52,478 bases of DNA from Sulfuricurvum sp. GTDB lineage: Bacteria > Campylobacterota > Campylobacteria > Campylobacterales > Sulfurimonadaceae. The translations under genes and the position numbers were made by a program. Of this stretch, positions 17,294-52,478 are shown in pieces; positions within the stretch are counted from its first letter, which is position 1; each line of letters starts with the position of its first letter. The notes under the pieces were generated by a model. The model ran no database searches, was not told the DNA's origin, and saw only the letters and a program-made list of their open reading frames with translations. The DNA lies in the NCBI GenBank assembly GCA_028710885.1, contig JAQTTG010000009.1, positions 1 to 52,478 on the forward strand, read 5' to 3'.

Positions 17294-17323
17294 TTTTTTT
17301 CCTTATAGTAATTTTATGCTCTT

Positions 17324-19641: not shown

Positions 19642-19644
19642 TAT

Positions 19645-21024: not shown

Positions 21025-21034
21025 ATTAAAGCCC

Positions 21035-25875: not shown

Positions 25876-25876
25876 T

Positions 25877-28699: not shown

Positions 28700-28853
28700 A
28701 TTTGCTCTCTCAATCATACTGTATTAATTACTGATCCATGTATCATATCGTTGAACTATCACAGAAAAATCATCTATTATCTGTAATGATCAAAAATAAA
28801 CACAAAATATAGCTTTTCATTCTATAAAGATAGCTTATACTGAATATTTTTTA

Positions 28854-30782
28854 TCACTCAGTTCCAGATAAATAACAATGATCTTCCGTTAAATGTTTTG
28901 CGTGATACATTGCCTGATCGGCATTTTTCAACAATGCCGATACTTCAGACCCATCTTGCGGATAGAAAGCAATGCCGATACTGATAGACGGAGACAACTC
29001 ATGTCCATCAACAATTACCGGTTCATTTGTTTTAACAATTAAATTTTTTGCCACAACAATTGCTTCGTCTGCATTTCGGACAGATTCAACGATAACTACA
29101 AATTCATCTCCGCCGAGCCGTGCTACAAAATCATTTGAACGCAAATATTTTGTCAGGGTATTTGATACAACTTTTAAAATCGTATCGCCAGCCTCATGTC
29201 CAAAAGTATCATTAATCTCTTTAAATTTATTCAAGTCTATAAAAAAGAGTGCGAATGTAGATTTACTGCTTCTGGCTTTGAGGATTACACTCTCTAACTT
29301 ATCCGTAAACGACAATCGATTAGGCAATCCTGTCAGTGCATCTTTCCGAGCTTGATTGGATAATTGTTGTTCCAATGCTTTTTGCGCACTGATGTCGGTT
29401 AACAAAGAAACATATTTCGACACTTTCCCTTTTTCATCATAAATGACGGAAATACTTTGAAGTGATGGATAGATTTCTCCATTTTCCCTTTTATTCCAAA
29501 TTTCCCCTTTCCAAACGCCAGTTGTATGCATAACTTTGAACATCTCATGATAAAAAGCGGTATCATGCCGACCGGATTTCAATATTCTAGGGCTTTTACC
29601 GATAGCGTATTCCAGCGAATAGCCAGTAACTTGTTCAAAAGCTTTGTTCCCTTTGATAATGATCCCATTTTTATCGGTGATAAAGATCGCTTCGGCACTG
29701 TGTTCAAATGCGATGGAAGCGATTTTTAATCTGGTCTCTCTTCTTTTATACTCTTCAATGTTTTCAATACTGATCCAAATGTATCTATTACTATGTATAC
29801 CAATCATTTTGGCCGAAATTTTGACCGTTATTTTATTTCCCATCATATCAATACAACTACTCTCAAATGGTTCTAAAATATGATCCTCATCCATATTTAA
29901 AATGATCTGTTTACTCGTTTCATAATCTTCCCAATACATTGTTTCAAAAAAACTTTTTCCTTTTAACTTTTCTTCGCTCAATCTCAACATTGTGGTAAAC
30001 GTTTTATTGACACGCAAAATAGTTCCATCCGTTAGACAAAGAGCGAGTCCGGTTGTTGACTGCTCTATCAATAAATCGTTTAGATCATTTGTATCTTGAA
30101 GATTTTTAATCAGTAATCTGATGAAATACCAATACACAAAACTCCCTATGACAGAGATAATCATTGCTACCAGCAAAGCATACGCAGCAGCGATATAATA
30201 AGGTCTTTCTACCTCTGCCATATCGATTTTAGCAACCAAACCCCATCCGAGTGAGTCGATAGGCTCATACGCTGCAAGCACTTTTGCACCTCTGTAATCC
30301 AATAAAATATCAATTCCCCGCTGACCATTTAGTGCTCTTCGCATCGGTTCTGCCAGATTAGAGTGCCATGGTACGGGAGTGATTTCTTTCATAGTAGCAT
30401 GACGTTTTTTAAGCAAAAATCGAATTTGATCCCCATCATGAGTACCTAATGCAAACTCACCGCTCTCTCCAAATCCATGATATTTATTATGTGCCTGAGC
30501 TATTTGGCGAATAATTTTTTCTGATTGAATGGGAGTTAATTTACCACCTTCTGGTTCATGAGAATTTTTAACAACTATTTCAATCATTTTGGATTGTGTC
30601 TGAACCAATTCAACCAGTCTGTCTTTTTGTTGATTGTATCCGATAAATGAAAGGAGCACAATGGATGTCACAGCAACGGTAAAGGTGCTAAAAAAGATCA
30701 ACGAAATAAGGTAATAAGGAGAGTGTTGTATCCTGATGTAGAGTAGGAAAGTGTTAATTAAGTTTTTTGGGGACCAGTTCAT
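28854..30782 (-). CDS. Cache-PAS-PAS-GGDEF diguanylate cyclase
   Basis: 642 residues. Membrane segments about 24-46 and 198-222 enclose a periplasmic single Cache domain (FGESGEFALGTHDGD, DYRGAKVLAAYEPID, GWGLVAKID). Two PAS domains follow (about 235-345 and 355-475), the second with GKSPRILKSGRHD. The GGDEF domain has RLGGDEFVVIV near 555-565 and the upstream RSND inhibitory (I) site five residues before GGDEF, so it should be an active, product-inhibited cyclase. It has the shared promoter motif copy B 54 nt upstream of its start codon. Confidence 0.95.
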   Translation of the reverse strand: MNWSPKNLINTFLLYIRIQHSPYYLISLIFFSTFTVAVTSIVLLSFIGYNQQKDRLVELVQTQSKMIEIVVKNSHEPEGGKLTPIQSEKIIRQIAQAHNKYHGFGESGEFALGTHDGDQIRFLLKKRHATMKEITPVPWHSNLAEPMRRALNGQRGIDILLDYRGAKVLAAYEPIDSLGWGLVAKIDMAEVERPYYIAAAYALLVAMIISVIGSFVYWYFIRLLIKNLQDTNDLNDLLIEQSTTGLALCLTDGTILRVNKTFTTMLRLSEEKLKGKSFFETMYWEDYETSKQIILNMDEDHILEPFESSCIDMMGNKITVKISAKMIGIHSNRYIWISIENIEEYKRRETRLKIASIAFEHSAEAIFITDKNGIIIKGNKAFEQVTGYSLEYAIGKSPRILKSGRHDTAFYHEMFKVMHTTGVWKGEIWNKRENGEIYPSLQSISVIYDEKGKVSKYVSLLTDISAQKALEQQLSNQARKDALTGLPNRLSFTDKLESVILKARSSKSTFALFFIDLNKFKEINDTFGHEAGDTILKVVSNTLTKYLRSNDFVARLGGDEFVVIVESVRNADEAIVVAKNLIVKTNEPVIVDGHELSPSISIGIAFYPQDGSEVSALLKNADQAMYHAKHLTEDHCYLSGTE

Positions 30783-30835
30783 TTTGTACTTCTTTTTCGC
30801 TGCTAATTAATATGCAAAAAATCCGAAAACAAGGT

Positions 30836-30868
30836 AGCATACCTATATAAAGTCATAAAACAATCACA
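30836..30868 (-). promoter_or_regulatory. Shared promoter motif, copy B (Cache-GGDEF gene)
   Basis: Minus strand begins TGTGATTGTTTTATGA, identical to copy A over these 16 bases, and ends with TATGCT at positions 28-33. Copy A is more than 14 kb away. The matching spacing between the conserved block and the -10-like hexamer supports a real promoter class. Confidence 0.62.
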
Positions 30869-30924
30869 ATATACAAATAATAATAAAATTTTATGCTATG
30901 TTCAATCGTAATGTTGAAAATACT

Positions 30925-32175
30925 TTAACTATTTGATAAAACTACTCTGTTACGCCCTCTTTCTTTCGCATCATACAATGCTTCATCCACCAGTTTAAAA
31001 AGCATTTCCTGCGTATTATTCTCTGCATACTCGACAACACCAAAACTCGCTGTTTTATGACCAACAAATTCAAAATGAAACTGCTCAATTTTTTTACGTA
31101 AACTCTCCGCAAAAACTAATGCGCCATCTGCATTCGAATGTGGACAAAGAATCAAAAATTCTTCTCCGCCCCAGCGTCCTAGAAAATCACTTTCGCGTAT
31201 ATTTTCTGAAAGGAGTTTTGCAAACTCTTTTAAAACACTATCACCCGCTTGATGTCCGAACTTATCATTGACCTCTTTAAAATGGTCGATGTCTACCAAA
31301 ATAATAGAAAAAGGATAATCATAACGCTTAACCCGCTTTATTTCATTCAAAAGGACTTCATCAATTTTCGTTCTATTCATCAGCCCCGTCAACGAATCGG
31401 TTTGAGAATCTATTTTGTATTTTACTTTATCATCAACATTTTCATAAAAAGCAATATACCCCATATGGTTGTTTTTTTCATCATAATCCGGAGAAATAGT
31501 GACATGAAACCAATTCGTACCGCCGGAAAAATTTCGATCATGCATATCATGCGAAAATGTTTGTCCGGATTTGATTGTATTCCATAATTTTTTGTAAATA
31601 TTATCGGTCATATTTCCGGATTTTAGTACATTAATATTTTGACCGATCATACTCTCTTTTAAACATCCCAATTGTTTGCAAAAATTGGAGCTGATCTCTT
31701 GTACAATCCCCATCGGATCAACTTTCACAAAAGATACGTACTGATCTACGACTTCAAGCAAATGGGTATTTTTTTTGAGCGCTCTTTTCAGCTGTCGCTG
31801 TAAATGGTTGGTTTGAATTCGGTTATCGACGCGTACATTGAGCTCTTGTGGCTGAAACGGCTTAATAATATAATCAACAGCACCTGTTTCAAAGGCTTTT
31901 ACGATTGTTTCCTGAGCATTATCTGCCGTCAAAAAGATAAATGGAATATGCGCTGTTTTTAGATTATTTTTAAGTTCTTTTGCTACTTCAAATCCATCCA
32001 TCTCCGGCATACTAATATCCAACAAGATCAAATCTACATGATGGTTTTTCAGCAATTCAAGAGCTTCAATTCCACTGCGCACCACTAAAATATTGTAACG
32101 ATCATTTAAACTTTCAGCTACAAGTTTCAGATTGATAGGTTCATCATCAACAATCAAGATAGTAATATTATCCAT
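30925..32175 (-). CDS. REC-PAS-GGDEF diguanylate cyclase
   Basis: 416 residues. Receiver domain 1-120 (LIVDDEP, Asp about 53 in ILLDISMPEMDGF, Lys in IIKPFQPQE); a PAS domain about 140-245 (NVLKSGNMTDNIYKKLW, NWFHVTISPDYDEKN); GGDEF domain about 250-412 with GRWGGEEFLIL and an RESD I-site five residues before. It is a response-regulator cyclase of the WspR/PleD type in function. Its start codon lies inside the end of the giant hybrid kinase gene (8-bp overlap), so the two are translationally coupled and the kinase's HPt domain is the likely phosphodonor. Confidence 0.95.
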   Translation of the reverse strand: MDNITILIVDDEPINLKLVAESLNDRYNILVVRSGIEALELLKNHHVDLILLDISMPEMDGFEVAKELKNNLKTAHIPFIFLTADNAQETIVKAFETGAVDYIIKPFQPQELNVRVDNRIQTNHLQRQLKRALKKNTHLLEVVDQYVSFVKVDPMGIVQEISSNFCKQLGCLKESMIGQNINVLKSGNMTDNIYKKLWNTIKSGQTFSHDMHDRNFSGGTNWFHVTISPDYDEKNNHMGYIAFYENVDDKVKYKIDSQTDSLTGLMNRTKIDEVLLNEIKRVKRYDYPFSIILVDIDHFKEVNDKFGHQAGDSVLKEFAKLLSENIRESDFLGRWGGEEFLILCPHSNADGALVFAESLRKKIEQFHFEFVGHKTASFGVVEYAENNTQEMLFKLVDEALYDAKERGRNRVVLSNS

Positions 32176-35100
32176 TCAATACCCGCTTAACCTGTTGAAA
32201 CAATTCTATTGACCCCTCATAATCAAAGGTAGAAACAGAATTATTTATTTTTGAAATCATATCTTGTTCGACAAATTGTCCAAGTTTAGCCAAACAATCA
32301 TGTAAATATTTATCATCAATGAATTCTTTATTCTGAAGTTTATCCATTATCTCATTAATCGTCCCATTCATCTCTTCTGAGGTAATGTTTTGTACGGAAT
32401 CAATGGTGATTTTTGGAAAACGATGATCGATAGAGATAATGACTTGATTCAACTCTTCCAACATTGGTGTAAGCAATCTTTTTTGCATCTCATAATCATT
32501 ACATTCATCAATCGTTTTTGTGAGTTCATACACACGTGTAGCCGCTATGTTCCCACTAACCCCTTTTAATCCGTGTATAAGTTGTTTAAATGAATCGCTT
32601 CCGATTGGAGTACCGATAATTTTAGATGAAAAATCGCGATACCCCTCAGCAAACATCTGTAAAAATCTCTCTACCTGCTCGTGGGTTTTTACTTTTTTCT
32701 TCAACTCATTCATATTAAGACCATTGATTTTCTCTGCGTGTGTCAAATGGGCTTCTTCTTCCACCCATCCAGATTTGAGATACTGTTCAAGAATACGCTG
32801 TAATTCGTTGATATCAATCGGTTTAGCAATATGATCGTTCATCCCTGCTTCATGTGTCAGTTTTTTATCATGTTCCATGACAGCCGCACTGAGTGCAATA
32901 ATGGGAATATCACGATTAAATTCCCGTATGTGCCGTGTGGCTTCAAATCCATCCATAACCGGCATCTGCAAATCCATCAATACCAGATCATAAGCTCTTT
33001 CTTGGACAAGGTCAACAGCTTCTTTTCCATTACTAGCGATCCTAACATCCACACCAAACAACTCCAGCAAATCGTGTATAACCAATTGATTGATTTCATT
33101 GTCTTCTACAACCAAAACATTGCCTCGAGCAAAAAAGTGCATGTTTTCCATATTTCCTTCAAACTGTTCAATCAAATTTGTCTCAGTAATGGATTCAAAC
33201 AGTATGGATGATGTAACCGGCTTGTGTAGAATTTTTTCGATATGTACATGCCGATGCTCAGAAGCTTGTATCAACTCTTCTTTAACATGTGCAGTTACCA
33301 TAATCACTTTTGGAAAAGTGGTTTCTAACTCTTCATGAAGTGTTTTAATTACATCCAATCCATCGACTCCAGGCATCTGCCAATCAACGATCAAATAGTC
33401 AAATGGCTGATTTTCAGCCAATCTGATTGCATCTGCACCATTATCACAAAGTATTGCAACAGCACCCCATGACTCTAAAATAGATCCAATAAGCTCACGT
33501 TCGAGCTGATTATCATCAACCACCAAAAATCGCTGATCTCGCAAATACTGAGTATCAATAGTGTCTATCCCCTCAGATATATCTCTTTTCAGTTTTACCG
33601 TAAAATAAAACGTTGACCCTTTTGTTCTTTCGCTCACTTGCCATATATGTCCACCCATCATCTCTACGAGTTGCTGAGATATGGTTAAACCGAGTCCTGA
33701 CCCTCCATATTTTCGAGTATTGGAACTGTCTGTTTGTGAGAATGCTTTGAAAAGTTTTAATTGTTCCTCTTCGCTCATCCCTATACCGGTATCTTGAATC
33801 GAACATTCCAATTCAACGTCACGCTCAGAGATAATGGTAGGTTTAACACGGATGACGATATCCCCTGTTTCCGTAAATTTCACTGCATTTCCGACGAGAT
33901 TATTAAACACTTGTGATAAACGAAGAGGATCACCTTTGAGCATATCCGGCGTATCTGGATGAATATCAATATGCACTTCGAGCGATTTTTGCAAAATGGC
34001 GTACTCAAACAAATCGGAAACATTTCTCAAAAGCATCTCTAATGAAAACCCTTTTTCTTCAAATTCCAGTTTTCCTGCTTCTATTTTTGAGTAATCCAAA
34101 ATATCGTTAATAACGCTCAAAAGTGCTTTGGAAGACTGCTGCGCTTTGTTCAAATAATCTTGTTGAAGTGATGTCAAATCCGTTTTTAACAATAGATCGT
34201 TTAATCCGATGACACCATTGAGCGGCGTCCGTATTTCATGACTCATATTTGCCAAAAATTCACTTTTTGCTTTATTTGCTGCTTCAGCCGTTTCTTTTGC
34301 ATGAGCTAATTCGTGTTCAATCTTTTTTTGTTCGGTTATATCAAACGCAACCCCCATCGCCTCCGTAGTTGACCCGCGTAAAGCTGTCATACTTGCCATA
34401 ATGCTAATCGGTGTTCCGTCTTTTTTCACACCCTGTATCTCACGGGTATAGATTCCAACACTAGAGAGTGCAGCATAACCTTCTTGCGCATAGCTTTGAC
34501 ACTCTTCATCGCTGATATACATAATACGGGTAGGTTTTCCGTCTAATTCACCTTTTTCATATCCCAACATCCGCTCAAACGTTTCATTGACCCATACAAA
34601 GTGTCTATCTTTCAAATGAACGAATCCGGTAGTTTTGACTTCCAAAAGTGCTTCTTGCTCATCCAATGTCTCTTGCAGTAATTTACTGGTTTCAATAAGA
34701 GAACGCTCATATTTTCTCTGTTCCGTAACATCTTTGGCACTGATCAACATCCGTTTTTTACCTATCAATAGGGAAACCGACATATTGACCATCATCTCAT
34801 TTCCGTCTTTAGTAATGCATCTTTTTTCAAAATTATTAATTTCTCCATGCTCTAAAACGACTTGCATTGCTTCAGCAGCTCTTGCTCGATCATCTGGGGC
34901 ACTTAGATCTAAACACGATGTTGCTAGAAGCTCTTCACGTGTATACCCAATCATATTAAGATAAGCATCATTAAATTCCAAAAATTTGGACTCTAAATCC
35001 ACAATAGCAATACCGTCTCTTGAAATGTTAAAAATAGATTCAAATTCCTCTTTTTGATGTTGAAGTTCTAATTTTTGACGTTCGCTATCGGTGATATCTA

Positions 35101-37297
35101 TACCAATGGTTGCAATATAATCCATAGTACCGTCTGGTTTGTTGACGAGCATATTTGACCATTCAAAATAACGTTCTTCGCCTGAGCGTGAATGCCATCC
35201 ATTTTGAAAACTTGTACTCACAATACCGTGTCTGGCATTTTCCATTATAGCAACCACTTTTTCCTGCATCGATACATGAAGAAAACGTTTCCAGAAATAA
35301 GGTTCTGATCGAATCTCTTCCTCGTTATAACCGACAAACTCTTGACCGTAACGGTTCAGCTTAATCATAGTTCCGGTAGAATCGATTACTCCGATGATAG
35401 AGTTGGCATTATCGATAATGGTGGAAATAAAATTCTTCTCTTGAATAATTTGATCTTCTAATGTTTTTTGAGCGGTTACATCATGAAACGTGGCATGGAG
35501 ATACTGTTTTTCCGAGATACGCATAATTTTTACACTGACAAAAATATTTTTTAGTCTTCCGTTTTTTGTTTTATGTACCGTTTCAAAGCGATCCCATCCC
35601 TGCTCGAGTATCCGCTGCTGTCGATTTTTTATCTCATCTTCGCTCTCAATAACTTCTAAATCTTTTGTCAGTACATCTGCAAACTCATCTTTTGTATATC
35701 CGTACATCTCAAATGCTTTAGTATTAAAATCAACCATTTTTTGCGTTTCGATATCGATCAATACAATTCCATCGAGTGATTCTTCAAACAATGTATAAAA
35801 CTTCTCTTCCGCTTGTAATAGTGCAGCAGTATGCTGTTTTTCAAGCCTGATGTCTTTAGCTACACCGAGATATCCGAGTATCTCATCATTTTCATCGCGT
35901 ATGGCAGTCACTACCAGCGAAACAGGAATGTGAGTACCATCTTTAGCTATATATTCCCATTCATACTCATTATGAAGGTTGAGATTACTTTTAGCAACCA
36001 ATACTTTAAATCCCGGTTCAAGTTCGATTCCAATTTCATCTGAAATCTCTTTGGATCGTTTTGTCATTTCCGGCATAAAATGAAAAAGCTCAGGTGAATA
36101 TTTATCTGCCAACTCTTCATTGGTATACCCGAGTAAATTTTCTGCTTCTTTGTTGATGGTTTTAATCAATCCGTCTTTATCAGTATGGATAATGGCATAA
36201 CCAACATTGTCAAATATTGCTTTTTCAAAAAAGAGTGAATCGTGTATTTGTTTACTTTTTTCAGCGATTTCCAATCTTTGATGCATCTCCTCAAATTTGG
36301 CCTTCGACAATGCAGATATTAGATTTCTGAGCAGTCCCGATAAAAACCAACTGGCTATAAAAGAGAGCGCCATGACTATCAATCCAATAACAAAATATTC
36401 TTCAAGGGTATTTTTGTGTTCATTTATCAGATAGGAACTTTTGAGTTGTAAAATCAAATACAGATCACCGCTAATATTGACATCAAGTTTTCGAGAGACG
36501 ATAGAATCATCGGTATATAGCTTGCCCGAGAATATTGCATTAAATTTATCGCTGAATTCATCGATCAGGTTAATTTTCGGATTTTGATAAAACCCCCAAT
36601 TCTTTTCTTTTTGATAATGGATCAATGGAAATCCCGCTCCATCAGCCAAAATCATATCATACAGCGGTGCATTGAAAAACTGATCTAAAAACGGCCCCAT
36701 AAAATAGTTAATGATCACAATACCGTTAAACTTACCATTGTTATCACTGATCGGCAAAATAGCGCGCAAAGTAGGTTTATACGGTTTTTCAATTTGATCA
36801 TGTTCAATATTGAGATCTATTTTGCTAAACCACACTTTTTCAAGAGGCTTATGACGTGAATCTTTAAAATAATAACGATCTGATTTGTTTTGCAGAGCAT
36901 TCTCTTTTACAACAAAAGGATCGCTGCCTATATCATGGCGATCAATTCTGATTTTTTCCATTCCCTCTTTATCTAAATAGCGTAATTGCATTATGGATGA
37001 GTTGCTCTGAGCCATCATGAGAAATTGTGATTTTGAATCGACATTTTCCCCTCGTAAATAACTTTTAAAATTATCAGAATGGGCTATCGCTATGAGGATA
37101 TTGCCAGAATCAGCTAGAAATTTTTTTAGATAGGTTTCTCGTTCGGCAGTTTTTCCGATTGCATTATTTAAAGCAGTCTTTTTCACTTGATCCGAATAAA
37201 GCAATCGGTCGGTTGAAATAAATAATACGATCAAACCAACAGCAAAAAAGAAAAAAATCCAGGTTAATACTAACTGCCTTGGAACCATATTTTTCAT
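32168..37297 (-). CDS. Giant Cache-PAS5-HisKA-REC-REC-HPt hybrid histidine kinase
   Basis: 1709 residues from the ATG at 37297 (AAAGG upstream; a TTG two codons earlier is less likely). Membrane segments about 10-30 and 302-324 flank a double-Cache-like periplasmic domain (IRIDRHDIGSDPFVV, PILPISD-type strand, FYQNPKINL). Five PAS domains follow between about 355 and 1000. HisKA has NMSHEIRTPLNGVIG (His about 1020), the ATPase FNNLVGNAVKF, QDTGIGM and GGSGLGLTISQQL. Two receiver domains have Asp about 1305 (LIVDWQMPG) and 1442 (LVLMDLQMPVMDG), and the HPt has His about 1575 in HGLKGVSGN. A complete phosphorelay is on one chain, ending next to a GGDEF response regulator. It is among the longest kinases expected for the group. 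Confidence 0.95.
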   Translation of the reverse strand: MKNMVPRQLVLTWIFFFFAVGLIVLFISTDRLLYSDQVKKTALNNAIGKTAERETYLKKFLADSGNILIAIAHSDNFKSYLRGENVDSKSQFLMMAQSNSSIMQLRYLDKEGMEKIRIDRHDIGSDPFVVKENALQNKSDRYYFKDSRHKPLEKVWFSKIDLNIEHDQIEKPYKPTLRAILPISDNNGKFNGIVIINYFMGPFLDQFFNAPLYDMILADGAGFPLIHYQKEKNWGFYQNPKINLIDEFSDKFNAIFSGKLYTDDSIVSRKLDVNISGDLYLILQLKSSYLINEHKNTLEEYFVIGLIVMALSFIASWFLSGLLRNLISALSKAKFEEMHQRLEIAEKSKQIHDSLFFEKAIFDNVGYAIIHTDKDGLIKTINKEAENLLGYTNEELADKYSPELFHFMPEMTKRSKEISDEIGIELEPGFKVLVAKSNLNLHNEYEWEYIAKDGTHIPVSLVVTAIRDENDEILGYLGVAKDIRLEKQHTAALLQAEEKFYTLFEESLDGIVLIDIETQKMVDFNTKAFEMYGYTKDEFADVLTKDLEVIESEDEIKNRQQRILEQGWDRFETVHKTKNGRLKNIFVSVKIMRISEKQYLHATFHDVTAQKTLEDQIIQEKNFISTIIDNANSIIGVIDSTGTMIKLNRYGQEFVGYNEEEIRSEPYFWKRFLHVSMQEKVVAIMENARHGIVSTSFQNGWHSRSGEERYFEWSNMLVNKPDGTMDYIATIGIDITDSERQKLELQHQKEEFESIFNISRDGIAIVDLESKFLEFNDAYLNMIGYTREELLATSCLDLSAPDDRARAAEAMQVVLEHGEINNFEKRCITKDGNEMMVNMSVSLLIGKKRMLISAKDVTEQRKYERSLIETSKLLQETLDEQEALLEVKTTGFVHLKDRHFVWVNETFERMLGYEKGELDGKPTRIMYISDEECQSYAQEGYAALSSVGIYTREIQGVKKDGTPISIMASMTALRGSTTEAMGVAFDITEQKKIEHELAHAKETAEAANKAKSEFLANMSHEIRTPLNGVIGLNDLLLKTDLTSLQQDYLNKAQQSSKALLSVINDILDYSKIEAGKLEFEEKGFSLEMLLRNVSDLFEYAILQKSLEVHIDIHPDTPDMLKGDPLRLSQVFNNLVGNAVKFTETGDIVIRVKPTIISERDVELECSIQDTGIGMSEEEQLKLFKAFSQTDSSNTRKYGGSGLGLTISQQLVEMMGGHIWQVSERTKGSTFYFTVKLKRDISEGIDTIDTQYLRDQRFLVVDDNQLERELIGSILESWGAVAILCDNGADAIRLAENQPFDYLIVDWQMPGVDGLDVIKTLHEELETTFPKVIMVTAHVKEELIQASEHRHVHIEKILHKPVTSSILFESITETNLIEQFEGNMENMHFFARGNVLVVEDNEINQLVIHDLLELFGVDVRIASNGKEAVDLVQERAYDLVLMDLQMPVMDGFEATRHIREFNRDIPIIALSAAVMEHDKKLTHEAGMNDHIAKPIDINELQRILEQYLKSGWVEEEAHLTHAEKINGLNMNELKKKVKTHEQVERFLQMFAEGYRDFSSKIIGTPIGSDSFKQLIHGLKGVSGNIAATRVYELTKTIDECNDYEMQKRLLTPMLEELNQVIISIDHRFPKITIDSVQNITSEEMNGTINEIMDKLQNKEFIDDKYLHDCLAKLGQFVEQDMISKINNSVSTFDYEGSIELFQQVKRVLNG

Positions 37298-37313
37298 ATA
37301 CAAAACACCTTTT

Positions 37314-43306: not shown

Positions 43307-43329
43307 AAAACTAGGGACTTAATAGTTTT
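43307..43329. terminator. Hairpin between convergent genes, possible bidirectional terminator
   Basis: AAAACTA (43307-43313) and TAGTTTT (43323-43329) form a 7-bp stem with a 9-nt loop between the SDR gene and the end of the heme receptor gene; the arms provide A- and T-tracts on both strands. Stem G+C is low, so strength is uncertain. Confidence 0.4.
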
Positions 43330-44920
43330 AAACCTTGAAAGCACCCAGTTCGTGAGTAAGATCACGTGTCACTTGATCAAGTTTACCCGCAATTTGCTGA
43401 AGCTCATTGGCTATATGTTCATTTTCTGCTGCCAGATGAGATGTTTCATTCATTTTGCTCATTAGCTCTTTCGTTCGCTGACCAATCGATACAACTTCCA
43501 TGGATGCTTTTTTTGCAATCTCACTGGTATCTTTGTTAGTATTTTTTGTTTCATCTGCCTGATCTTTTACCATTGTAGCTTCTACGCTAATATGGTTTAT
43601 ACGTTCTGCATTCTCATGCATCGTTTTGCTAACATCCTCAACACTTTGAACAACAATATTTACAGTCGCATCTATCTCAGATAAACTTTTTTGTGTCCGC
43701 TCTGCAAGTTTACGCACTTCATCTGCGACTACGGCAAATCCCCGTCCATGCTCTCCAGCACGAGCTGCTTCAATCGCTGCATTTAGGGCCAATAGATTAG
43801 TTTGGTCTGCAATATCACGAATAATGGTAAGGATTGTTTTAATTTCTACCGTCTGTTGCGCTGTTTGCACAACTTTATCACTGGTTTCAATCTCTCGTGA
43901 ACTGGCAGTCAAAATATTAGAAACTACATCATCCAAAGAAACAACCATTGTTTCAAGTGCCTGATAGCTTTTATACATCTCTTCTGCTGTTTGAATTGAA
44001 TACTCTTCACTTCGATCAAGATCTTTTTCAACAAGCTCTGTGAGCTTTTTAGACTCTTCAACTTTAGTACTTTGTGTAATGGTACTGCTTTGCAAGGAAA
44101 TAGCATGTGCAGATAAAACTGACGCTATCTTTTGAGATTCAGATGCCGTAGCAAGAACTGTTTCGACGACTTGTCGTATTTTCTCTATAAAGAGATTAAT
44201 ATTTTTGGCTATCTCTCCCAGTTCATCTTCACTGTTTACGCTAAGCCGAGCGGTTAAGTCCCCTTCCCCACCGGAAAGATCTTTCACACGCTGAAGTAGT
44301 TCATTTAGTGGTGTGCCAATAATTCGGCGCAATATCATCATTAAAATAAGAATGGTGAAAATTGCTCCTATTATCATAGTAAGAACCGTTTTTGTCGTCA
44401 TCACTGAAATATCTTTTTCAAGATCTTCTAATGAATATTCCAAATCCATAACCCCAAGCACATCTCCTACTTTTGCATTTGTATGACACATCATGCATTC
44501 ATCAGTAGCAATAAGTGGACTAAGAATTTTCATTGTATGCCCATCTTCGCTGACAATTGTTGCTGCCTGAGAATTTTTGAATACATTGTCAACTTCTTGT
44601 GGAAGTGGAGATGGTTTTGGAAGTTTAAATAACTCAATTACTTGGGGAGATTTGTAAATTGTAAGTTCTTTTACCCCTTTAATTTCACCTGCTTTTTTGA
44701 GAGTTGCTTCAACTACTTCCGGATCACCCAAATTCATCGCACCGCGAATAGTTTGAAAAACAGATGCGCTAAGCATTTGAAGATGTTTTTTTCCTGATTC
44801 CAGCTGAGATTCTTCAAATTCTTGTGTTACCACCCATTGTAATCCAGCAGAAGTAATCAGCAAAATAGCTATCAAAGAGAGTACTATTTTGAGTCCGATT
44901 GAACGGCGAATACTGGTCAT
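43328..44920 (-). CDS. Chemoreceptor with periplasmic c-type heme motif
   Basis: 530 residues. Membrane segments about 10-28 and 176-198 flank a periplasmic domain of about 145 residues that contains [10 protein letters not shown] near 141-150: a CxxCH motif for covalent heme c attachment, shortly before the second membrane segment. HAMP follows ([21 protein letters not shown]), then the signalling domain with tip [23 protein letters not shown] near 390. It should sense redox state, oxygen, NO or a similar ligand at a periplasmic heme and report to CheA/CheW. It is the last gene of a four-gene operon with a STAS protein 9 bp upstream. AAGGG precedes the ATG. Confidence 0.93.
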
Positions 44921-44929
44921 TGTTTCCCT

Positions 44930-45241
44930 TTATCCCATTTTTTGAATAACATTAAATTGTGTTGTCAAACATAGATTGTCTAGCAATTCATATAATTGAG
45001 GTACTCTTGCAATCACTGAGATTTGAGCGTTATCACTAAGTATAAATTTTTGCAATGTCCCTATAAGTGCTGAGGGGATGACAAATGTATCTATGAAATC
45101 AATTACGATTTTTTTTTGGGGATCACGTTGCAGTAATGTTCCAATTTGTTCTTTCAATATTACAGTCTCAGCAATCGTTTTAACTATTCCCGTTACTGTT
45201 ACCACACTATGACTATGTGCATCGGTAATTTTGCTCTCCAT
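44930..45241 (-). CDS. STAS-domain anti-sigma-factor-antagonist-like protein
   Basis: 103 residues from the ATG at 45241, with AGGA 6 nt upstream; a TTG at 45247 is a weaker alternative. STAS fold: SVVTVTGIVKTI, a helix, then KKIVIDFIDTFVIPSALIGTLQKF, where the Ser after VIP (about residue 57) is in the position phosphorylated in SpoIIAA/RsbV proteins, and ISVIARVPQLYELLDNL. It is the expected substrate of the kinase and phosphatase domains encoded just upstream (45286-47004). Its downstream partner is unknown; candidates are an anti-sigma factor, a cyclase or the array itself. Confidence 0.85.
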   Translation of the reverse strand: MESKITDAHSHSVVTVTGIVKTIAETVILKEQIGTLLQRDPQKKIVIDFIDTFVIPSALIGTLQKFILSDNAQISVIARVPQLYELLDNLCLTTQFNVIQKMG

Positions 45242-45285
45242 ATCCAATCCTTTTACATAAATTAATTGTAGCGTTTTTTTTATTA

Positions 45286-47004
45286 TTATGATATTTTATG
45301 TAAAAACATAACAGAATTTCCAACCTTATTGTAATAAAGTCCCATAGATGCCTGTCGAGATAAATAAACGCCCTTACCATTATACTGAGCTGTGTTTCTA
45401 AAAATTTTACTGAGTGTTTTTGTGTCAAAACCAGCCCCCTCATCCGTAATCTGCGTCACAAGATAACGATTTGTCTCTTTCTCTATCAAATAAATTTTTA
45501 CATCAATCTGCTTAACACAATAAATTTCTCGTTCCATCAATATATCAATATAAGAATCTTTTGCTATTAATTCGTGTTTTGCTTGTGATCCTATTCCAAG
45601 ATTTCCATGTTCATAAGCATTCATCATTAATTCTGTAAAAACAATCTGAGCATTGGCAATCATGGTCATATCATCCGGAACATTTTTTTTCCAAAGTAAC
45701 TCATACCAACTTCCAGCTTCATCAAGCGCACTAAGTGCTGTCGTAAAATGACGATGATATAGCATCTTGTTTTCAAAAGCAAAACAATTAATAAAAATAA
45801 AGGTCACATCATCTTCTTGAACATCAATTCTTTCAAAAAAATACTTTTTCAATTCCTCTTTCGTGTAAGAATTTAAAAAATCTTCATCCAAATGATCCGC
45901 ATAAATCCCCTTACCGCCTTTGAGCGTATTTTCAACCACACCATCGGTACAAAAAAGAAATTTTATAATAGAAGATATATCTATTTGAGCAATTTCAAAT
46001 GTACGTATATACTTATTCATTGGTGGATTATTCGATTTTAATTTTGTGATTTTTTTTGATAAATTTTGTAACAATGACGGTGGCATTGCAAATTTTGCAT
46101 ACTCCATTTTATTCTCATTTTGATCTATCACAATAAAATCGATAGACAGCATTTCATCATCCAACAATATCGGTCGAATATAGTTCATTGCATCACTGAT
46201 CAAATCACGTAAATCAAACTGCTTATTTTCAAGCATGATGTCAATACTATAGTTGATATGCGCTGTCATCAGCATCGCACTTAGCGATGCTGAGACACCT
46301 TTACCCATCCCATCAACAAGTAAATAGAGAGTTCGATGGTTATCGATCATACGTGCAGAATAAGCATCACCGCTGAGTATGTCAAGAGGACGATAAATAA
46401 AATCAGGGATAAGAACACTCTCATCGGAGCAACATTCACATTCCAATCTCTGATAATAAAAGTCATTTCGTAAAATTGCAAGTTCTTTATCAAATGCAAT
46501 CTGTTCTTGATAGAGACTGTATCGCTCTTTTTCTTGAAGTTCATGAATTTTTTTACTTCGTTCTGCTTCTATGTAGCGCTCGCCGATAACAATTTTTGCA
46601 GCCATAACAACTGCTTCAAAAACTTCTTCTGTATCAATCGGTTTACGAATAAAATTAGATACGTGTAACTTTAATGCCTCAATAATAACATCTGAAATAT
46701 CGATAGCTGTAACAAGTATAATAGGGATAAAAGGATTTTCAAGACGGATTTTTCGAATCATTTCAAGACCGTCAAGACGAGGCATATGATAATCTGTAAT
46801 AATTATATCTACATGATTCTTTTGATACTGCTCATACCCCTCTTCTCCATCATTCGCAACAATGACTTTTGATACGATATCTTCAAAAAGCAAGGGATAG
46901 AGCATTTGTGAAAATTTGTCATCTTCGACACACAGCAATGTCATATCCCCAAGATACTCTTTATATAAATCGTATAAAGGGTTATACGAAGATGGATTAT
47001 TCAT
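45286..47004 (-). CDS. REC-PP2C phosphatase-HATPase kinase partner-switch protein (HsbR-like)
   Basis: 572 residues. Receiver domain about 20-140: LLCVEDDK, Asp about 71 in IIITDYHMPRLDG, Lys in FIRKPID. A coiled coil follows (about 145-185), then a SpoIIE/RsbU-type PP2C domain about 200-395 with ILSGDAYSARM, LLVDGMGKGVSASL, FLFCTDGVVEN and EDDVTFIFI. The C-terminal RsbW-like ATPase domain, about 425-565, has IVFTELMMNAYEHGN, ITDEGAGFD and GKGVYLSRQA. Phosphatase and serine kinase for the STAS protein are thus on one chain, controlled by a receiver. The same order is known for HsbR of Pseudomonas aeruginosa (with STAS partner HsbA). It is 15 bp downstream of the EAL-HDOD gene. Confidence 0.92.
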   Translation of the reverse strand: MNNPSSYNPLYDLYKEYLGDMTLLCVEDDKFSQMLYPLLFEDIVSKVIVANDGEEGYEQYQKNHVDIIITDYHMPRLDGLEMIRKIRLENPFIPIILVTAIDISDVIIEALKLHVSNFIRKPIDTEEVFEAVVMAAKIVIGERYIEAERSKKIHELQEKERYSLYQEQIAFDKELAILRNDFYYQRLECECCSDESVLIPDFIYRPLDILSGDAYSARMIDNHRTLYLLVDGMGKGVSASLSAMLMTAHINYSIDIMLENKQFDLRDLISDAMNYIRPILLDDEMLSIDFIVIDQNENKMEYAKFAMPPSLLQNLSKKITKLKSNNPPMNKYIRTFEIAQIDISSIIKFLFCTDGVVENTLKGGKGIYADHLDEDFLNSYTKEELKKYFFERIDVQEDDVTFIFINCFAFENKMLYHRHFTTALSALDEAGSWYELLWKKNVPDDMTMIANAQIVFTELMMNAYEHGNLGIGSQAKHELIAKDSYIDILMEREIYCVKQIDVKIYLIEKETNRYLVTQITDEGAGFDTKTLSKIFRNTAQYNGKGVYLSRQASMGLYYNKVGNSVMFLHKIS

Positions 47005-47019
47005 AAAATCTCTCTATCA

Positions 47020-48237
47020 TTAAAACTTAGTGCTGATGTCTGACATGAGTCGTAAAAATGGTGTAGTCTCTATAGAGTATTTTGCTATAAACTCTCTAAT
47101 TTTTTCTACATCGAACTTCTCAATCGCTTCAACTGCTATCAATAACTCTCCATAAACCCCTGTTTGTTCAAGTAAAGCATTATTAACATCATCCGAGAGA
47201 TTAATCTCTTTTAATATGAGATTTAATGGCATTGACATAACCGTGCTAGACAATGACATAACCCCTACAAAAAATGCTTTATCTTCATCAGATTGCTTGG
47301 AATTAGGATACATCAGTTTATAGAGACCTTTCATTAATGCCGAGCGTTTAGAAACCATTTGCATTAATGCCGATTGGGACTTAGAGTGATTAACCGATTT
47401 ACCATAAAGCAATAATAACAACCAATTGGAAAGAGGTTCACGGCCTAATAACGTTAGAACTTGATGTATGGATGAGACTTCTTTTGAAAAGAAAAAAGAA
47501 CTTGAATTTATGTATTGCAACAACTGTATTGTAAGTTCATGATTCGATTCAAATGTAGATATTAATTCTTCAATCGATATATCCGATTTAAGCATATTAT
47601 AGAGTTGAATAATCGCCATCGCTTTTGGCTCTATTGTTTTATGTTCAATGATTACCGGTTCACTAAAAAAATATCCTTCTACATATTTGTAGTCAAAAGC
47701 TTTTGCAATCGCGTATTCTTCATTAGTATTGATATTTGTGGCAATAAAATCGACCTGATATGCTTTAAATGTTTCTGTAAGTTTTGCCAGATATTCCTGA
47801 GGCAAATTTTTTAAATTTATCTTTATATAACTCAAAAATGGGATAACTGTAGCAAAACGTCTAATGGTACCGGTGGTTTTAAAGTCAATATCATGAAGAG
47901 CAAATAGATACCCTTGTGCATGAAGTTCTCTAATACGTTCATGAGTTTCTTTAGTAATATTAATACTACCTAGTAAAGAGAAAACAAATAAATTTTTAGG
48001 AACGGAATTAATAAACGTACTCATTAAAAAAGTTTCATCTATTTTGATAAATCCCAACGTGTTTCCCAAAATTGTTTTAACACTAAATGTATCAATAAGA
48101 GACGCTACAATAACAGATGCCTGAGTAGATTCTGATTTTTTTTGCTGCAGTGAAGAGGATTCATAAAATAGCTCATAAGCTACTATGTCTCCGTGATGAT
48201 CAATAATCGGCTGTCGCCCTATCAGTTGTGATGACAT
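47020..48237 (-). CDS. EAL-HDOD protein (catalytically degenerate EAL)
   Basis: 405 residues. N-terminal EAL-like domain 1-200: GRQPIIDHHGDIVAYELFYES at the start, but the later signature motifs are lost: the DDFG position reads HDIDF and the AExVE position reads ATNINT. It should therefore bind partners or c-di-GMP instead of cleaving it. The C-terminal HDOD domain, 205-400, has SIEELISTFESNHELTIQLLQYINS and SIHQVLTLLGREPLSNWLLLLLYGK. EAL-HDOD proteins of this YuxH/CdgJ type regulate motility or surface attachment in several bacteria by unknown means. AAAGG precedes the ATG; it is the first gene of the heme receptor operon. Confidence 0.92.
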   Translation of the reverse strand: MSSQLIGRQPIIDHHGDIVAYELFYESSSLQQKKSESTQASVIVASLIDTFSVKTILGNTLGFIKIDETFLMSTFINSVPKNLFVFSLLGSINITKETHERIRELHAQGYLFALHDIDFKTTGTIRRFATVIPFLSYIKINLKNLPQEYLAKLTETFKAYQVDFIATNINTNEEYAIAKAFDYKYVEGYFFSEPVIIEHKTIEPKAMAIIQLYNMLKSDISIEELISTFESNHELTIQLLQYINSSSFFFSKEVSSIHQVLTLLGREPLSNWLLLLLYGKSVNHSKSQSALMQMVSKRSALMKGLYKLMYPNSKQSDEDKAFFVGVMSLSSTVMSMPLNLILKEINLSDDVNNALLEQTGVYGELLIAVEAIEKFDVEKIREFIAKYSIETTPFLRLMSDISTKF

Positions 48238-48359: not shown

Positions 48360-51300
48360 TTAAACAAGATGCTGATCGATTGTCTGTTCAACATAAAGAG
48401 TAACGGTTGGGTCAAGATTATTTTGATACACATTCATCATGTGACCAACACTGTGTGTATCTGTCACCGTAGCTGTCCCATTCGTAAACCAATCGTTATG
48501 AGCTGTATTTGTTTTGATTGTTACGTGATCTGTAGAATCTCCAAATATAATTAATTGTTTATTCGAATCCGTAAGATCAATAACATCTTGAAGTGAAAGA
48601 TTCGTTATTGAATGATCCCCATTTAATGTCAAATCAATAATTTCCATATTTTTAATAGGATTATTCGTGGAATCAAGTAAGCTAAAATCGATAGATGAGC
48701 CCAAAGACAATACGAGAGAATCTGAACCTAAACCACCATCCAAAACAAGATCTGTGGTGTTATACGTGAGTTGATCATTACCTGCTTCTCCATAGATAGA
48801 GTTATTACCGGCTCCGCCATCTAAAATATCATTCCCATCCCCACCGTATAAAGTATCATCACCCGCATCTCCACGAAGAGTATCGTTTCCTGCTCCGCCG
48901 TATAAAATATCATTTCCTGCTCCACCTGAGAGGGTATCATTATCGGCTTCACCGTACAATGTATCATTACCATCTCCACCTTGGATAATATCATTCCCAG
49001 TTCCACCATATAGGATATCATCTCCACCCAGACCTGCAATAGCATCATTCCCATTACTACCCGTAATTGTTTCACCTGCAGAAGTACCGGCATAATGGTT
49101 CGTTTCAATATTGAGTGTCAATGTAGTCGATGATGTATTACCATGTGAGTCGGTCAGCGTATAATCAATAATTTCCGAGTTTATAGGGGTCGCCGAAGCA
49201 TTATTAGTCGGCACATCAAATTCGAGCTGATAAAGACGAACAGCCGTCCCGGTATCGGATAGCATTACAACGGAGCCTACATTACTGTATTTACCACTCA
49301 GGGCAAACAGTGCTGTTGATGTTGCGGCAATCGTTTCTTGTCCGAGCTCCTGACCATCAATACCGTAAACAGTGTAAGTTACTGCTTCAGTTGCGCCACT
49401 ATTGGTAATTGCAAATCGTAAATTTTGAACCCCAAGAGCATAGGTAGCATGATTAAACGTAATTACTAATGACTCAAGATTATCAAGCATATTATTAGTA
49501 CCGCCCGTTACAGCAACACCCCCTGATGTTCCGGTAGTATAGTTTAATGCAGCGGAACCAGGTACGGTGCTGCTTGGTAGTTCTCCTTGCAAGGTAATTC
49601 CATCAGCTACAAGCGGAGCTGCTGTCAAGGTAATCAGTTTATTTATCAAACTCGTTGAAGGTACTGGGACATCAACAGTCGGAGGAGTATATTTATAGTA
49701 GCCATTTTCAGCAAAAATGAGTGTGCTTCCCGTGGTACTGTTCGTCCATGTTAATTTGCCAGATGCGATCGAATATGTACCTCCTAATACTGTTCCACTG
49801 CTATTGGTAGTTAAATCAAAAACCGTACCTTTAAAGTTTATAGAAGAGACAAATGCACCATTCACAATAGAATCTGCACCTGATCCTTGCACAGCAAAAT
49901 TAGTCAATTGCGACCCTAGCTGTGTTCCCCCATCCGTTCCCAAACCGGTGATAACATTACCATCAAAAAAGGTATTAATTGCGTAAAGTGTATCAGTATC
50001 AGCATTTGCAAAAGGTTTTCCATCAATAATTGTAATGGTTTGAACAGCTTGTGCATTATCACCCTCATTATCTACCGCGATAAATGATAAATTAAATGAT
50101 GTACCCTGAGGAGTAGTGTCGGTAAAATATTTATAGGTACCTGTAATAAAATCAAAGACCAAAGTACCATTTTTAAACCCAATAGTCTGATTGAGTGTCA
50201 ACGTATCCGCATTCAACGGCAATCCGGTTAATGGAACACTGCTTGTAATTTGATTCGTTGCTTTATCGTACGTAAACGTTACATCGATATCGGGTGTTGC
50301 ACTGTTATTATCAGTATCTAAAGAGAGCGTAATCGATTGGATATAACCACCATCCGCACCAAAAGAAACCTTTTGTGTACCGGTTGTTGCAGTAACAATA
50401 CTGCCTCCAAAAGCAGAGGGTACCGTAGACAATAATGTATTTTCTAATTGATTAACATCCGCTACAATAGTCGCAGGATCTTTTACACCATCACCCATAG
50501 CATCAACATTATTTATTTGATTTAAAAAAGTTGTATTGGTAATTCCAGAACCAACTCCGATTGCATACGAATGTACCGATGGATTATTATTAAGGTACGT
50601 CGTATAATTTGGAGTATACGTAGCTGTAGAAACTGGGTTAGTAGTATCTCCAGCTGTCGGATCACCATCCGACATAAAATAGACATAGTTCTCTCTACCT
50701 GCGACAGGAGTTGTTCCTACAGCTGTCATGGTTTTAGCCAATGCATCTGAATAATTAGTGCTTCCACCCGTAACTAATCCGTTAATAGCTGCTAAAACAG
50801 ATGCTTTTGTCGTATATGCAGCGCCACCATTCATAATGTTAGCAGTTGAATTAAAATTTACAATTTTAATTTGAATATCAGAAGCCTGATTAAAGTATTC
50901 AGTAATTAAAGAGTTCAATGCTGTTTTTTCAGCTGCCAAACGTGTCGTAAGCGTAACGCTGCCATCCGCATTCACTAATTTTACTAAATCAGCCATACTT
51001 CCAGATGTATCTATGACAAAGACCAAAGAATATTTTGGTGTATTACTTTGTGCAACGGTAACAACTTGATCCGAGGCCGTAGGTGCATCATCAACAATCG
51101 TCACATTTAAATTTGCCGATGAACCATTGGCATTGTAGGTGAAAACATCTTGAGCACTGTAGTTAGTTGTAGACGTATTAGTTGCTGCGTGCAGTAATGT
51201 ATAAGTGTAGTCACCTGCATTAGCACCTGTGGTTTGGACAACAAAATTTCCATACGTTGAGTTTGCACCTATGTATCCGGCTCGTGCATCTGTATCATTC

Positions 51301-52478
51301 ACACTGCCATCTGTAATTGTCGTTCCGCCATTTACTTGAATACTAGTGATAGATGTATTACCAATATCATTGGTAAATAAATTACCAGTAGCGATTGTTG
51401 TTCCTCCACCTGTCCCGTTAGACAATGCCGATTCGTTGACTGTTGCTAAATCATCACCTGCATTATAGGTAATAATCGAATCTGTAGCTGTTGATGTATC
51501 ACCATTGTCATCTATCAGTGTATAGGTAAATGTTGCCGTTCCTATTGCCGAAGGGGTATAAGTATACGTGCCATCTAGATTATCAACCAAGGAACCGCTT
51601 GATGGTGTTCCTATCGAGAGGATATGAGCATGATCCGGAAGAGAATCATTAGCAAGTAATGAAGCCTGTGTAATGATAAGTGGTGTACCTAAATATGATC
51701 CAAAAGATTCGCTCGATGCTACCGGAGTTCCATCATTTACAGGTAAAACATGTATTGTACCTAGTACAGATGAAGATGAAAGCCCTATATTATCAATTGC
51801 TTTATAATTAAAAGTTGTATCCCCATTCCAGTTGCTATCTGGCAAAAAGTAAAGTGAAATTGCATTTGAACTTGCTGTATATGCAGTATCTGTAACAACA
51901 ATTTGAGTCATTGCAGCATCTAAGTACAATACACCGTTAAGTGGTTGTGAGGTAATTACAAAACTTGCAATTGTCCCATCAACATCACTTCCTGTCAAAA
52001 TAAGCGGTATTTCAGTATCTTCATTGCCAGTTACCGTAACAGCGTTTGGTATTGGAGCATCATTGACGGGGGTAACACCGATGTTGACCGTTGATGTTGC
52101 TGTGCCGCCATTGCCATCTGAGATGGTAACGCTAAAGCTATCGCCTCCGTTGTAGTTTAGGCTCGGGGTGTAGGTCCATGTTCCATCAGGGTTAACAACG
52201 ACCACTCCGTGTACCGGATCCGTTGCTTTTGCATAGGTTAATGTATCTCCATCCACGTCGCTTCCGACTACTTGTCCCGATACTGCGGTATCTTCTGGTG
52301 TACTAACGCTGTAATTTCCGGTGGTAGGATCGAAGGTCGGGTTGGTTGGATCGTTTGGTATTGGAGCATCATTGACGGGGGTAACACCGATGTTGACCGT
52401 TGATGTTGCTGTGCCGCCATTGCCATCTGAGATGGTAACGCTAAAGCTATCGCCTCCGTTGTAGTTTAGGCTCGGGGT
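48360..52478 (-). CDS. Giant type I-secreted adhesin, C-terminal part (5' end off the window)
   Basis: About 1372 residues are visible; the frame is open to the right edge, so the true start lies outside. From N to C: two or more near-identical 103-residue cadherin/VCBS-like repeats (DGDTLTYA, GTWTYTP, NDAP motifs), further Ig-like repeats of the T1SS repeat type, a von Willebrand A domain (50400-51035) with the metal-site motif DTSGS and SDGDP, more beta-rich repeats, then RTX nonapeptide repeats (48772-49066) and a C-terminal region of about 110 residues ending in a hydrophobic/acidic tail expected of type I secretion signals. It should be exported by an ABC/HlyD/TolC system and bind calcium outside the cell, mediating attachment or biofilm growth. 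The secretion genes are not in the window. Confidence 0.93.
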   Translation of the reverse strand, partial: TPSLNYNGGDSFSVTISDGNGGTATSTVNIGVTPVNDAPIPNDPTNPTFDPTTGNYSVSTPEDTAVSGQVVGSDVDGDTLTYAKATDPVHGVVVVNPDGTWTYTPSLNYNGGDSFSVTISDGNGGTATSTVNIGVTPVNDAPIPNAVTVTGNEDTEIPLILTGSDVDGTIASFVITSQPLNGVLYLDAAMTQIVVTDTAYTASSNAISLYFLPDSNWNGDTTFNYKAIDNIGLSSSSVLGTIHVLPVNDGTPVASSESFGSYLGTPLIITQASLLANDSLPDHAHILSIGTPSSGSLVDNLDGTYTYTPSAIGTATFTYTLIDDNGDTSTATDSIITYNAGDDLATVNESALSNGTGGGTTIATGNLFTNDIGNTSITSIQVNGGTTITDGSVNDTDARAGYIGANSTYGNFVVQTTGANAGDYTYTLLHAATNTSTTNYSAQDVFTYNANGSSANLNVTIVDDAPTASDQVVTVAQSNTPKYSLVFVIDTSGSMADLVKLVNADGSVTLTTRLAAEKTALNSLITEYFNQASDIQIKIVNFNSTANIMNGGAAYTTKASVLAAINGLVTGGSTNYSDALAKTMTAVGTTPVAGRENYVYFMSDGDPTAGDTTNPVSTATYTPNYTTYLNNNPSVHSYAIGVGSGITNTTFLNQINNVDAMGDGVKDPATIVADVNQLENTLLSTVPSAFGGSIVTATTGTQKVSFGADGGYIQSITLSLDTDNNSATPDIDVTFTYDKATNQITSSVPLTGLPLNADTLTLNQTIGFKNGTLVFDFITGTYKYFTDTTPQGTSFNLSFIAVDNEGDNAQAVQTITIIDGKPFANADTDTLYAINTFFDGNVITGLGTDGGTQLGSQLTNFAVQGSGADSIVNGAFVSSINFKGTVFDLTTNSSGTVLGGTYSIASGKLTWTNSTTGSTLIFAENGYYKYTPPTVDVPVPSTSLINKLITLTAAPLVADGITLQGELPSSTVPGSAALNYTTGTSGGVAVTGGTNNMLDNLESLVITFNHATYALGVQNLRFAITNSGATEAVTYTVYGIDGQELGQETIAATSTALFALSGKYSNVGSVVMLSDTGTAVRLYQLEFDVPTNNASATPINSEIIDYTLTDSHGNTSSTTLTLNIETNHYAGTSAGETITGSNGNDAIAGLGGDDILYGGTGNDIIQGGDGNDTLYGEADNDTLSGGAGNDILYGGAGNDTLRGDAGDDTLYGGDGNDILDGGAGNNSIYGEAGNDQLTYNTTDLVLDGGLGSDSLVLSLGSSIDFSLLDSTNNPIKNMEIIDLTLNGDHSITNLSLQDVIDLTDSNKQLIIFGDSTDHVTIKTNTAHNDWFTNGTATVTDTHSVGHMMNVYQNNLDPTVTLYVEQTIDQHLV
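48772..49066 (-). repeat. RTX calcium-binding nonapeptide repeats
   Basis: About eleven tandem units of the form GGxGNDxLY, for example GGTGNDIIQ, GGAGNDILY and GGDGNDTLY, form the usual calcium-filled beta roll near the C-terminus of the adhesin. The DNA shows matching near-repeats of about 27 bp. Confidence 0.93.
50400..51035 (-). other. von Willebrand factor A domain within the adhesin
   Basis: The domain starts YSLVFVIDTSGSMADL, which gives the DxSxS metal-ion-dependent adhesion site, continues with FNSTANIMNGGAAY, has the conserved Thr in GGSTNYSDAL and Asp in FMSDGDPTAG, and ends near FLNQINNVDAMG. All MIDAS residues are present, so it should bind a divalent ion and a protein or surface ligand. 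Confidence 0.88.
52043..52478 (-). repeat. 309-bp tandem repeat in the adhesin gene, cut by the window edge
   Basis: The 127 bases at 52043-52169 are repeated without a mismatch at 52352-52478, an offset of 309 bp, which equals 103 codons. The identity runs to the last base of the window, so more copies probably follow. Near-identical repeats of this kind expand and contract by recombination and are often miscounted in short-read assemblies. Confidence 0.9.

Follow-up and report, generated by a model that had tools for sequence, protein, structure and literature searches.

The window analysed here, by which we mean the whole stretch of 52,478 nt from a Sulfuricurvum sp. contig (JAQTTG010000009.1), carries four consecutive minus-strand genes encoding an EAL-HDOD protein, a REC-PP2C-HATPase protein, a STAS protein and a chemoreceptor. 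The open reading frames and Pfam confirm their order and spacing as given in a preliminary description of this DNA, the intergenic gaps being 15, 44 and 9 nt (the second is counted from an ATG at 45241 and becomes 38 nt if translation starts at the TTG at 45247). An adhesin gene lies next to them. The genes and the features referred to below are as follows.

48360–52478, minus strand: RTX/VWA/cadherin-like adhesin, a neighbour only, running off the contig (Pfam and homology search)
47020–48237, minus strand: EAL-HDOD protein, 405 aa (ORF and Pfam EAL and HDOD); local neighbour outside the conserved core
45286–47004, minus strand: REC-PP2C(SpoIIE)-HATPase protein, 572 aa (Pfam); predicted to phosphorylate and dephosphorylate the STAS protein
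46792–46794, minus strand: codon of the receiver phospho-acceptor Asp71 (nearly invariant)
44930–45247, minus strand: STAS protein, 105 aa counted from the TTG, the ATG at 45241 being the likelier start (family profile, model and conservation)
45071–45073, minus strand: codon for Ser59, the residue of the STAS protein predicted to be phosphorylated (invariant; a helix of the model begins with it)
43328–44920, minus strand: methyl-accepting chemotaxis receptor, 530 aa, with HAMP and a signalling domain with canonical tip (ORF and Pfam HAMP and MCPsignal)
44381–44842, minus strand: periplasmic single-Cache sensor domain of heme type, receptor residues 27–180 (profile match and model)
44483–44497, minus strand: predicted heme-attachment motif CMMCH, receptor residues 142–146 (no change at either Cys or at the His in 12 homologs)
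43979–44020, minus strand: module-specific receptor motif, residues 301–314 (alignment columns)

The operon structure is deduced from the spacing of the genes, since promoter and terminator scans at the locus gave no excess over chance, with the exact sigma-54 consensus absent. Family searches of this genome found one SpoIIE gene, 16 receptors and three CheA genes. A second chemosensory cluster occupies 16199–26374 of the window (minus strand), with genes for CheW, a 4HB receptor, CheA, CheR, a PAS protein, a histidine-kinase-like protein, CheD, CheB and another receptor, and is followed at 10695–16125 by receiver, MASE3-PAS kinase and HD-GYP-type genes. A row of c-di-GMP genes (GGDEF-EAL, PAS-GGDEF and REC-PAS-GGDEF) at 27056–37303 (minus strand) also includes a hybrid histidine kinase (1711 aa) that has several PAS and receiver domains.

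Components of the switch and the sensor

Judged by their residues, the switch proteins are real and look active. Pfam assigns Response_reg, SpoIIE and HATPase_c_2 to the REC-PP2C-HATPase protein, the last weakly (E 0.0015). No variation was found at the PP2C metal-binding residues or the ATP-binding residues (N-box and G-box) among 13 aligned homologs, and hardly any at Asp71 and Lys121 of the receiver. RssB (3eq2) is a close solved relative of the REC-PP2C part and ‘SenB’ (9qih) the best one of the HATPase part. No Pfam model matched the STAS protein; the profile of its family reached RsbV (E 0.003) with Ser59 placed on the RsbV phosphoserine, while viral spike chains among the profile matches were discarded as chance matches. 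The AlphaFold model of the STAS protein (pLDDT 94) has a fold like SpoIIAA, RsbV and TM1442, and Ser59 opens a helix in it; in SpoIIAA the phosphoserine likewise stands at the start of a helix. The phosphorylatable serine proposed earlier is upheld by this alignment to RsbV and by its invariance in 27/27 homologs and in 73/73 members of a wider STAS set. The earlier likening to HsbR/HsbA also holds as regards the parts, REC, PP2C and HATPase being joined in one protein beside a single-domain STAS protein, with all catalytic residues present. In such families the HATPase domain phosphorylates the STAS serine, the PP2C domain dephosphorylates it and receivers of this type bias the balance. The receiver, along with any other input domain, is absent from several of the related PP2C-HATPase proteins (L035, L036, L063–L067).

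The CMMCH of the receptor is located between its transmembrane segments (residues 8–26 and 179–197), and the Cys, Cys and His of the CxxCH, together with a second His, are invariant in 12 homologs. The sensor profile reached GSU0582 (3b47; E 7.8e-6) and the sensor model matched WalK, GSU0935 (3b42) and GSU0582, and weakly Tll0287. The two GSU crystal structures are described as swapped dimers in PMC3460858, and this swapping may explain the high rmsd between them and the model. Because PF11845 did not match the receptor at E up to 1, the sensor is placed by profile and fold, as a divergent relative of the heme Cache family. Motif invariance, profile and fold thus support the periplasmic c-heme-type sensor that had been read from the CxxCH; of the heme redox signal proposed with it, the heme-type sensor stands and the signal may be NO instead. 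A 2026 preprint (PMC12889525) presents these domains as heme Cache domains, those fused to signalling modules showing NO-sensor properties, and given the relationship of our sensor to those of GSU0582 and GSU0935, NO and redox would be equally plausible signals. The same CxxCH sensor type is also present, on an ordinary cytoplasmic half and with no switch, in L170, a further receptor of this genome (contig C5 of G000); the sensor is therefore not specific to the locus described here, and this second receptor represents a useful control.

A three-gene module in several Campylobacterota families

The STAS protein was searched for in 100 relatives, its profile was next run against 397 genomes of this phylum, and relatives of the PP2C-kinase were searched independently of STAS in named genomes (Sulfurimonas, Sulfurospirillum, Nautiliaceae, Nitrospirota and others). 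The resulting gene maps were reduced to 83 distinct STAS proteins, many of which are close relatives, so that they do not represent 83 independent events. A same-strand chemoreceptor gene stands directly beside the STAS gene in 55/83 (at −16 to +32 nt in 54 of these), a PP2C/HATPase gene is its immediate neighbour in 32/83, and a receptor and/or PP2C/HATPase gene accompanies it in 79/83; many of the other loci have the order STAS-receptor-PP2C. With 10–38 MCP genes per genome, chance adjacency of STAS and receptor genes would be expected in about 1–3% of cases; the observed frequency is far beyond this, and the genetic link between receptor and switch is real. The pair even remains together in G079 and G056, in which the PP2C-HATPase gene sits elsewhere in the genome. 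REC-PP2C-HATPase, STAS and receptor constitute a real module, present in several Campylobacterota families and smaller than the four genes of the preliminary description: the three-gene core is conserved in relatives, the order of all four is not, which for the full set is the outcome that the description had named as a refutation.

The module is patchy within the genus, a close STAS ortholog being found in only one (G016) of the 40 congeners searched, and PMC9239204 reports the same for such genes. Three genomes (G440, G396 and G057) keep STAS and PP2C-HATPase genes and have no module-type receptor at E 1e-40; either STAS has another target there or the genes are remnants. The mapped neighbourhoods contain no output gene, such as an anti-sigma factor or a diguanylate cyclase, conserved beside the module, and no cheA, cheW, cheR, cheB or cheD next to it, the che cluster of the window being about 17 kb away. 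The neighbours of the trio vary by clade and are housekeeping genes (MgsA, RluA, SIS/CBS, AICARFT, hydrogenase, FlhB). Weak STAS matches of one further family (f14) in four genomes were rejected as members of the module: L244, L246 and L247 have neither MCP nor PP2C genes nearby, and L245 has a receptor one gene away that lacks the motif described below. One genome (G041) holds a second STAS switch (L053), composed of a STAS protein, a FIST-PAS histidine kinase, a REC-PP2C protein and a REC..EAL protein, which suggests a c-di-GMP output for that switch.

The EAL-HDOD protein and the adhesin are local and do not belong to the core. In G016 the trio is flanked by ApbE and other genes, with neither an EAL-HDOD nor an adhesin gene beside it, and the genome has no homolog of the adhesin at E 1e-20. 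The EAL half of the EAL-HDOD protein is degenerate, falling under the Pfam cut-off with metal motifs that seem substituted by eye. The protein has four further relatives in the genome of the window, and its best orthologs are in two congeners (G026 and G038) in which the STAS search found no STAS protein; it is probably an independent c-di-GMP-related neighbour. HDOD genes beside such a switch were found only at this locus and at two Nitrospirota loci (L069 and L071), too few cases for EAL-HDOD to be called a member of the system, and some link of HDOD proteins to such switches may exist. At the two Nitrospirota loci the HDOD gene is directly upstream of REC-PP2C-HATPase and STAS genes, with no receptor and with large FG-GAP repeat proteins nearby, an arrangement that echoes the upstream position of EAL-HDOD in the window. 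The adhesin frame reaches the contig end amid near-identical repeats and has a paralog of about 48–55% identity on another contig (G000:C29:71027-75229). Control of the adhesin by the switch, as suggested by the preliminary description, finds no support, nothing beyond adjacency in this single genome speaking for it.

The cytoplasmic domain of the linked receptors

The module receptor has a canonical tip and a C-arm extending 124 aa past the tip motif, both the tip and this length being those of most transmembrane receptors of these genomes. Mainly 40H receptors feeding the flagellar F3 system have been reported in these genera (PMC9321776), and by analogy with that study we class the module receptor as 40H-like. 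In a tree of the cytoplasmic domains of 23 linked and 33 unlinked receptors, a single branch sets all the linked 40H-like receptors apart (support 87/44; in 84% of bootstrap trees), linkage to the switch requiring one change on the tree versus about 18 for shuffled labels. The receptors of this single-branch group carry at least three kinds of sensor.

The linked receptors share a motif, LDxxEE(x)6(T/V/A)E(D/E), at residues 301–314 and in constant register to the tip, Glu305 being 83 residues before the tip stretch. Counted by alignment columns and not by pattern search, the motif occurs in 23/23 linked and whole in 0/33 unlinked receptors, two divergent Nautiliaceae receptors keeping EE with the final acidic pair changed to T/K-T. 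Glu305 itself is present in 23/23 linked versus 2/33 unlinked receptors, and an acidic residue at 306 in 23/23 versus 9/33. The receptor of the window has AEE where others have TED. Seven linked receptors outside the defining set (L036, L038, L039, L249, L253, L254 and L261) also have the motif, and another linked receptor, L255, is unmatched by the motif pattern. The nearest unlinked homolog (L265, G079:C1:433945), an orphan without STAS that shares 45% identity with the module receptor of Sulfurimonas, has a degenerate motif, LDGIEKASNATTDD, with the second Glu changed; this single case provides a natural test case for the motif.

Conversely, Glu or Gln at position 281 is found in 26/33 unlinked versus 3/23 linked receptors, and at position 505 in 25/33 versus 2/21, the unlinked glutamates at 505–506 belonging to an SVEEI stretch. 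By analogy with enteric receptors these positions would lie in the methylation helix zone, and the usual methylation glutamates are thus apparently mostly lost in the linked receptors. In a control clade of 11 unlinked receptors the clade-specific positions are mostly at 261–277 and 501–513 and not at 293–318 and 469–490; the location at 293–318 and 469–490 is therefore a property of the linked group, whose private patch, as read from the alignment, lies closer to the tip than the zone that is usually methylated.

A second class of receptors is associated with such switches at L033, L051 and L250, in which a STAS/PP2C switch is found with a 167-aa PAS protein and an MCP, and similarly at L049 and L085. 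These receptors are soluble-looking, with a longer C-arm and no LDxxEE motif, and a zinc-binding CZB domain was confirmed in L033. As they are paired with switches without having the motif, linkage to such switches arose in more than one receptor class.

Direction of signalling and relation to known systems

The reading we prefer, to which we would give slightly less than an even chance, is that the partner switch is dedicated to a single chemoreceptor, on which its STAS protein acts. The REC-PP2C-HATPase protein would set the state of Ser59, its HATPase half phosphorylating and its PP2C half dephosphorylating the serine (activities taken from the family), and the receiver would bias this balance when acted on by some histidine kinase or CheA. 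One phospho-form of the STAS protein, probably the unphosphorylated one, would bind the heme-Cache receptor encoded next door, on its cytoplasmic bundle and close to residues 293–318 and 469–490, and change the way in which the receptor drives CheA. Within the flagellar array, one receptor would thereby have its gain or its state of adaptation set by a second input. The binding, its site, its direction from STAS to receptor and the effect on swimming are what we infer from the patterns described above. This direction is favoured by the adjacency of STAS and MCP genes across several families, by the pairs left intact in the two genomes with a distant PP2C-HATPase gene and by the gathering of linked receptors on one branch despite their differing sensors. 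It is also favoured by Glu305, by the seven additional carriers of the motif and by the scarcity of Glu/Gln at 281 and 505, together with the different positions specific to the control clade and the degenerate motif of the orphan homolog. The canonical tip and the invariant or nearly invariant residues of STAS, PP2C, REC and HATPase point the same way, and the same flow is proposed in PMC9239204. Against it stand the three genomes keeping the switch without a module-type receptor, and a comparison of STAS proteins, made in search of a receptor-binding patch, in which those accompanied by a linked receptor showed no residues distinguishing them from those without one. In addition, the carriers of the motif form one clade on a branch of moderate support (87/44), and the motif may reflect mere ancestry. 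In its most specific form, which we consider unlikely, the proposal would have the partner switch run receptor adaptation, through docking of the STAS protein, dependent on serine phosphorylation, on the LDxxEE...TED patch of the N-arm facing residues 469–490 of the C-arm. The patch would have evolved as the methylation glutamates were lost, the phosphatase/kinase balance replacing or supplementing methylation.

The modules with a PP2C-HATPase protein devoid of REC also argue against action of STAS on the receptor: in them only the receptor offers a sensory domain, and it may serve as sensor and not as target. Following this direction, which is that of the preliminary description and which we regard as a serious contender though somewhat unlikely, the heme-Cache domain would sense NO or redox and tip the PP2C/kinase balance, directly or via CheA on the receiver, and STAS would control an anti-sigma factor, a diguanylate cyclase or EAL-HDOD. 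HsbA and CrsA do act on other targets (PMC5085249, PMC6482189, PMC9855816), related switches are found beside REC..EAL proteins (L053 and L079), and the genome of the window has three CheA genes. However, the genes beside the module include no conserved output gene, the receiver, which would be the natural entry for CheA, is frequently missing, and a receptor with an ordinary tip should feed chemotaxis too.

The locus could also hold a conventional switch of HsbR/HsbA type acting on an anti-sigma factor or a c-di-GMP enzyme, the receptor being no more than a co-transcribed gene, an arrangement that would tie the expression of motility genes to that of attachment genes. The domain order is that of HsbR and CrsR, the Nitrospirota relatives associate HDOD, REC-PP2C-HATPase and STAS without a receptor, and some Campylobacterota have STAS and PP2C-HATPase without one. 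We nevertheless hold this explanation to be rather improbable, as near-overlapping STAS-receptor pairs recurring across families with different sensors and a specialised cytoplasmic half of the receptor are not predicted by co-expression alone. That the full four-gene operon and the adhesin form one attachment circuit, a view that the tight same-strand spacing in this genome would favour, appears very improbable: EAL-HDOD and the adhesin are absent beside the closest module, that of G016, a genome without a detected adhesin homolog at the threshold given above, and EAL-HDOD has its four other relatives here and its orthologs in congeners devoid of the module.

Methylation, deamidation and ligand-binding proteins are known means of tuning a chemoreceptor. 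If our preferred reading is true, a Ser/Thr partner switch tuning a receptor joins two signalling worlds considered separate and explains a gene set recurrent in Campylobacterota about which there have so far been only guesses. The receptor motif points to residues for mutation and would predict switch-linked receptors in any genome.

Several known systems share parts of this organization. In RssB/RssC of Pseudomonas and SypE/SypA of Vibrio fischeri, a protein with REC and PP2C (and kinase) domains controls a STAS protein, as proposed here, but there the switch is directed at sigma-factor control or biofilm genes instead of a receptor. The sensor resembles the sCache_heme receptors GSU0582 and GSU0935 (DUF3365/Tll0287), which have a periplasmic single Cache on an MCP, with CxxCH before the last strand; we know of no partner switch attached to these receptors. 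HsbR/HsbA of Pseudomonas aeruginosa similarly consists of a REC-PP2C-kinase and a single-domain STAS protein with a phosphorylatable Ser. Unlike the module described here, that unit is not known to include a dedicated receptor gene, and HsbA acts on FlgM, HsbD and RpoS regulation (in part after PMC5085249 and PMC6482189). Receptor, STAS and serine phosphatase genes are found together in gammaproteobacterial F7 clusters, as in CrsR/CrsA with McpA in the Shewanella che1 locus and in stage-1 F7 clusters, CrsR/CrsA controlling RpoS (PMC9855816, PMC7184735). These lie inside a complete, RpoS-linked F7 chemosensory cluster, whereas the present module is free-standing and the C-arm of its receptor is as long as in the main class of transmembrane receptors in these genomes, unlike the F7 setting.

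The closest precedent is the pathway from REC-PP2C/stas_STYK to STAS to chemoreceptor predicted for Campylobacterota (PMC9239204, mBio 2022). That study describes the same three parts, phylum, proposed logic and sporadic distribution, and our locus agrees with it in having REC-PP2C-kinase, STAS and chemoreceptor genes in one Campylobacterota neighbourhood. A change of receptor conformation brought about by STAS, which belongs to that pathway, may occur here too, the receptor clade and its specific residues giving indirect support. The earlier statement that no system with these parts had been described was thus not quite right, the core being already predicted there. As far as its accessible text goes, that prediction is made from gene neighbourhood only, and the receptor clade, the motif, the methylation-site loss and the heme sensor do not appear in it. 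What is new here is accordingly the receptor clade with its motif, the methylation sites that it seems to have lost and a heme-type sensor in such a setting.
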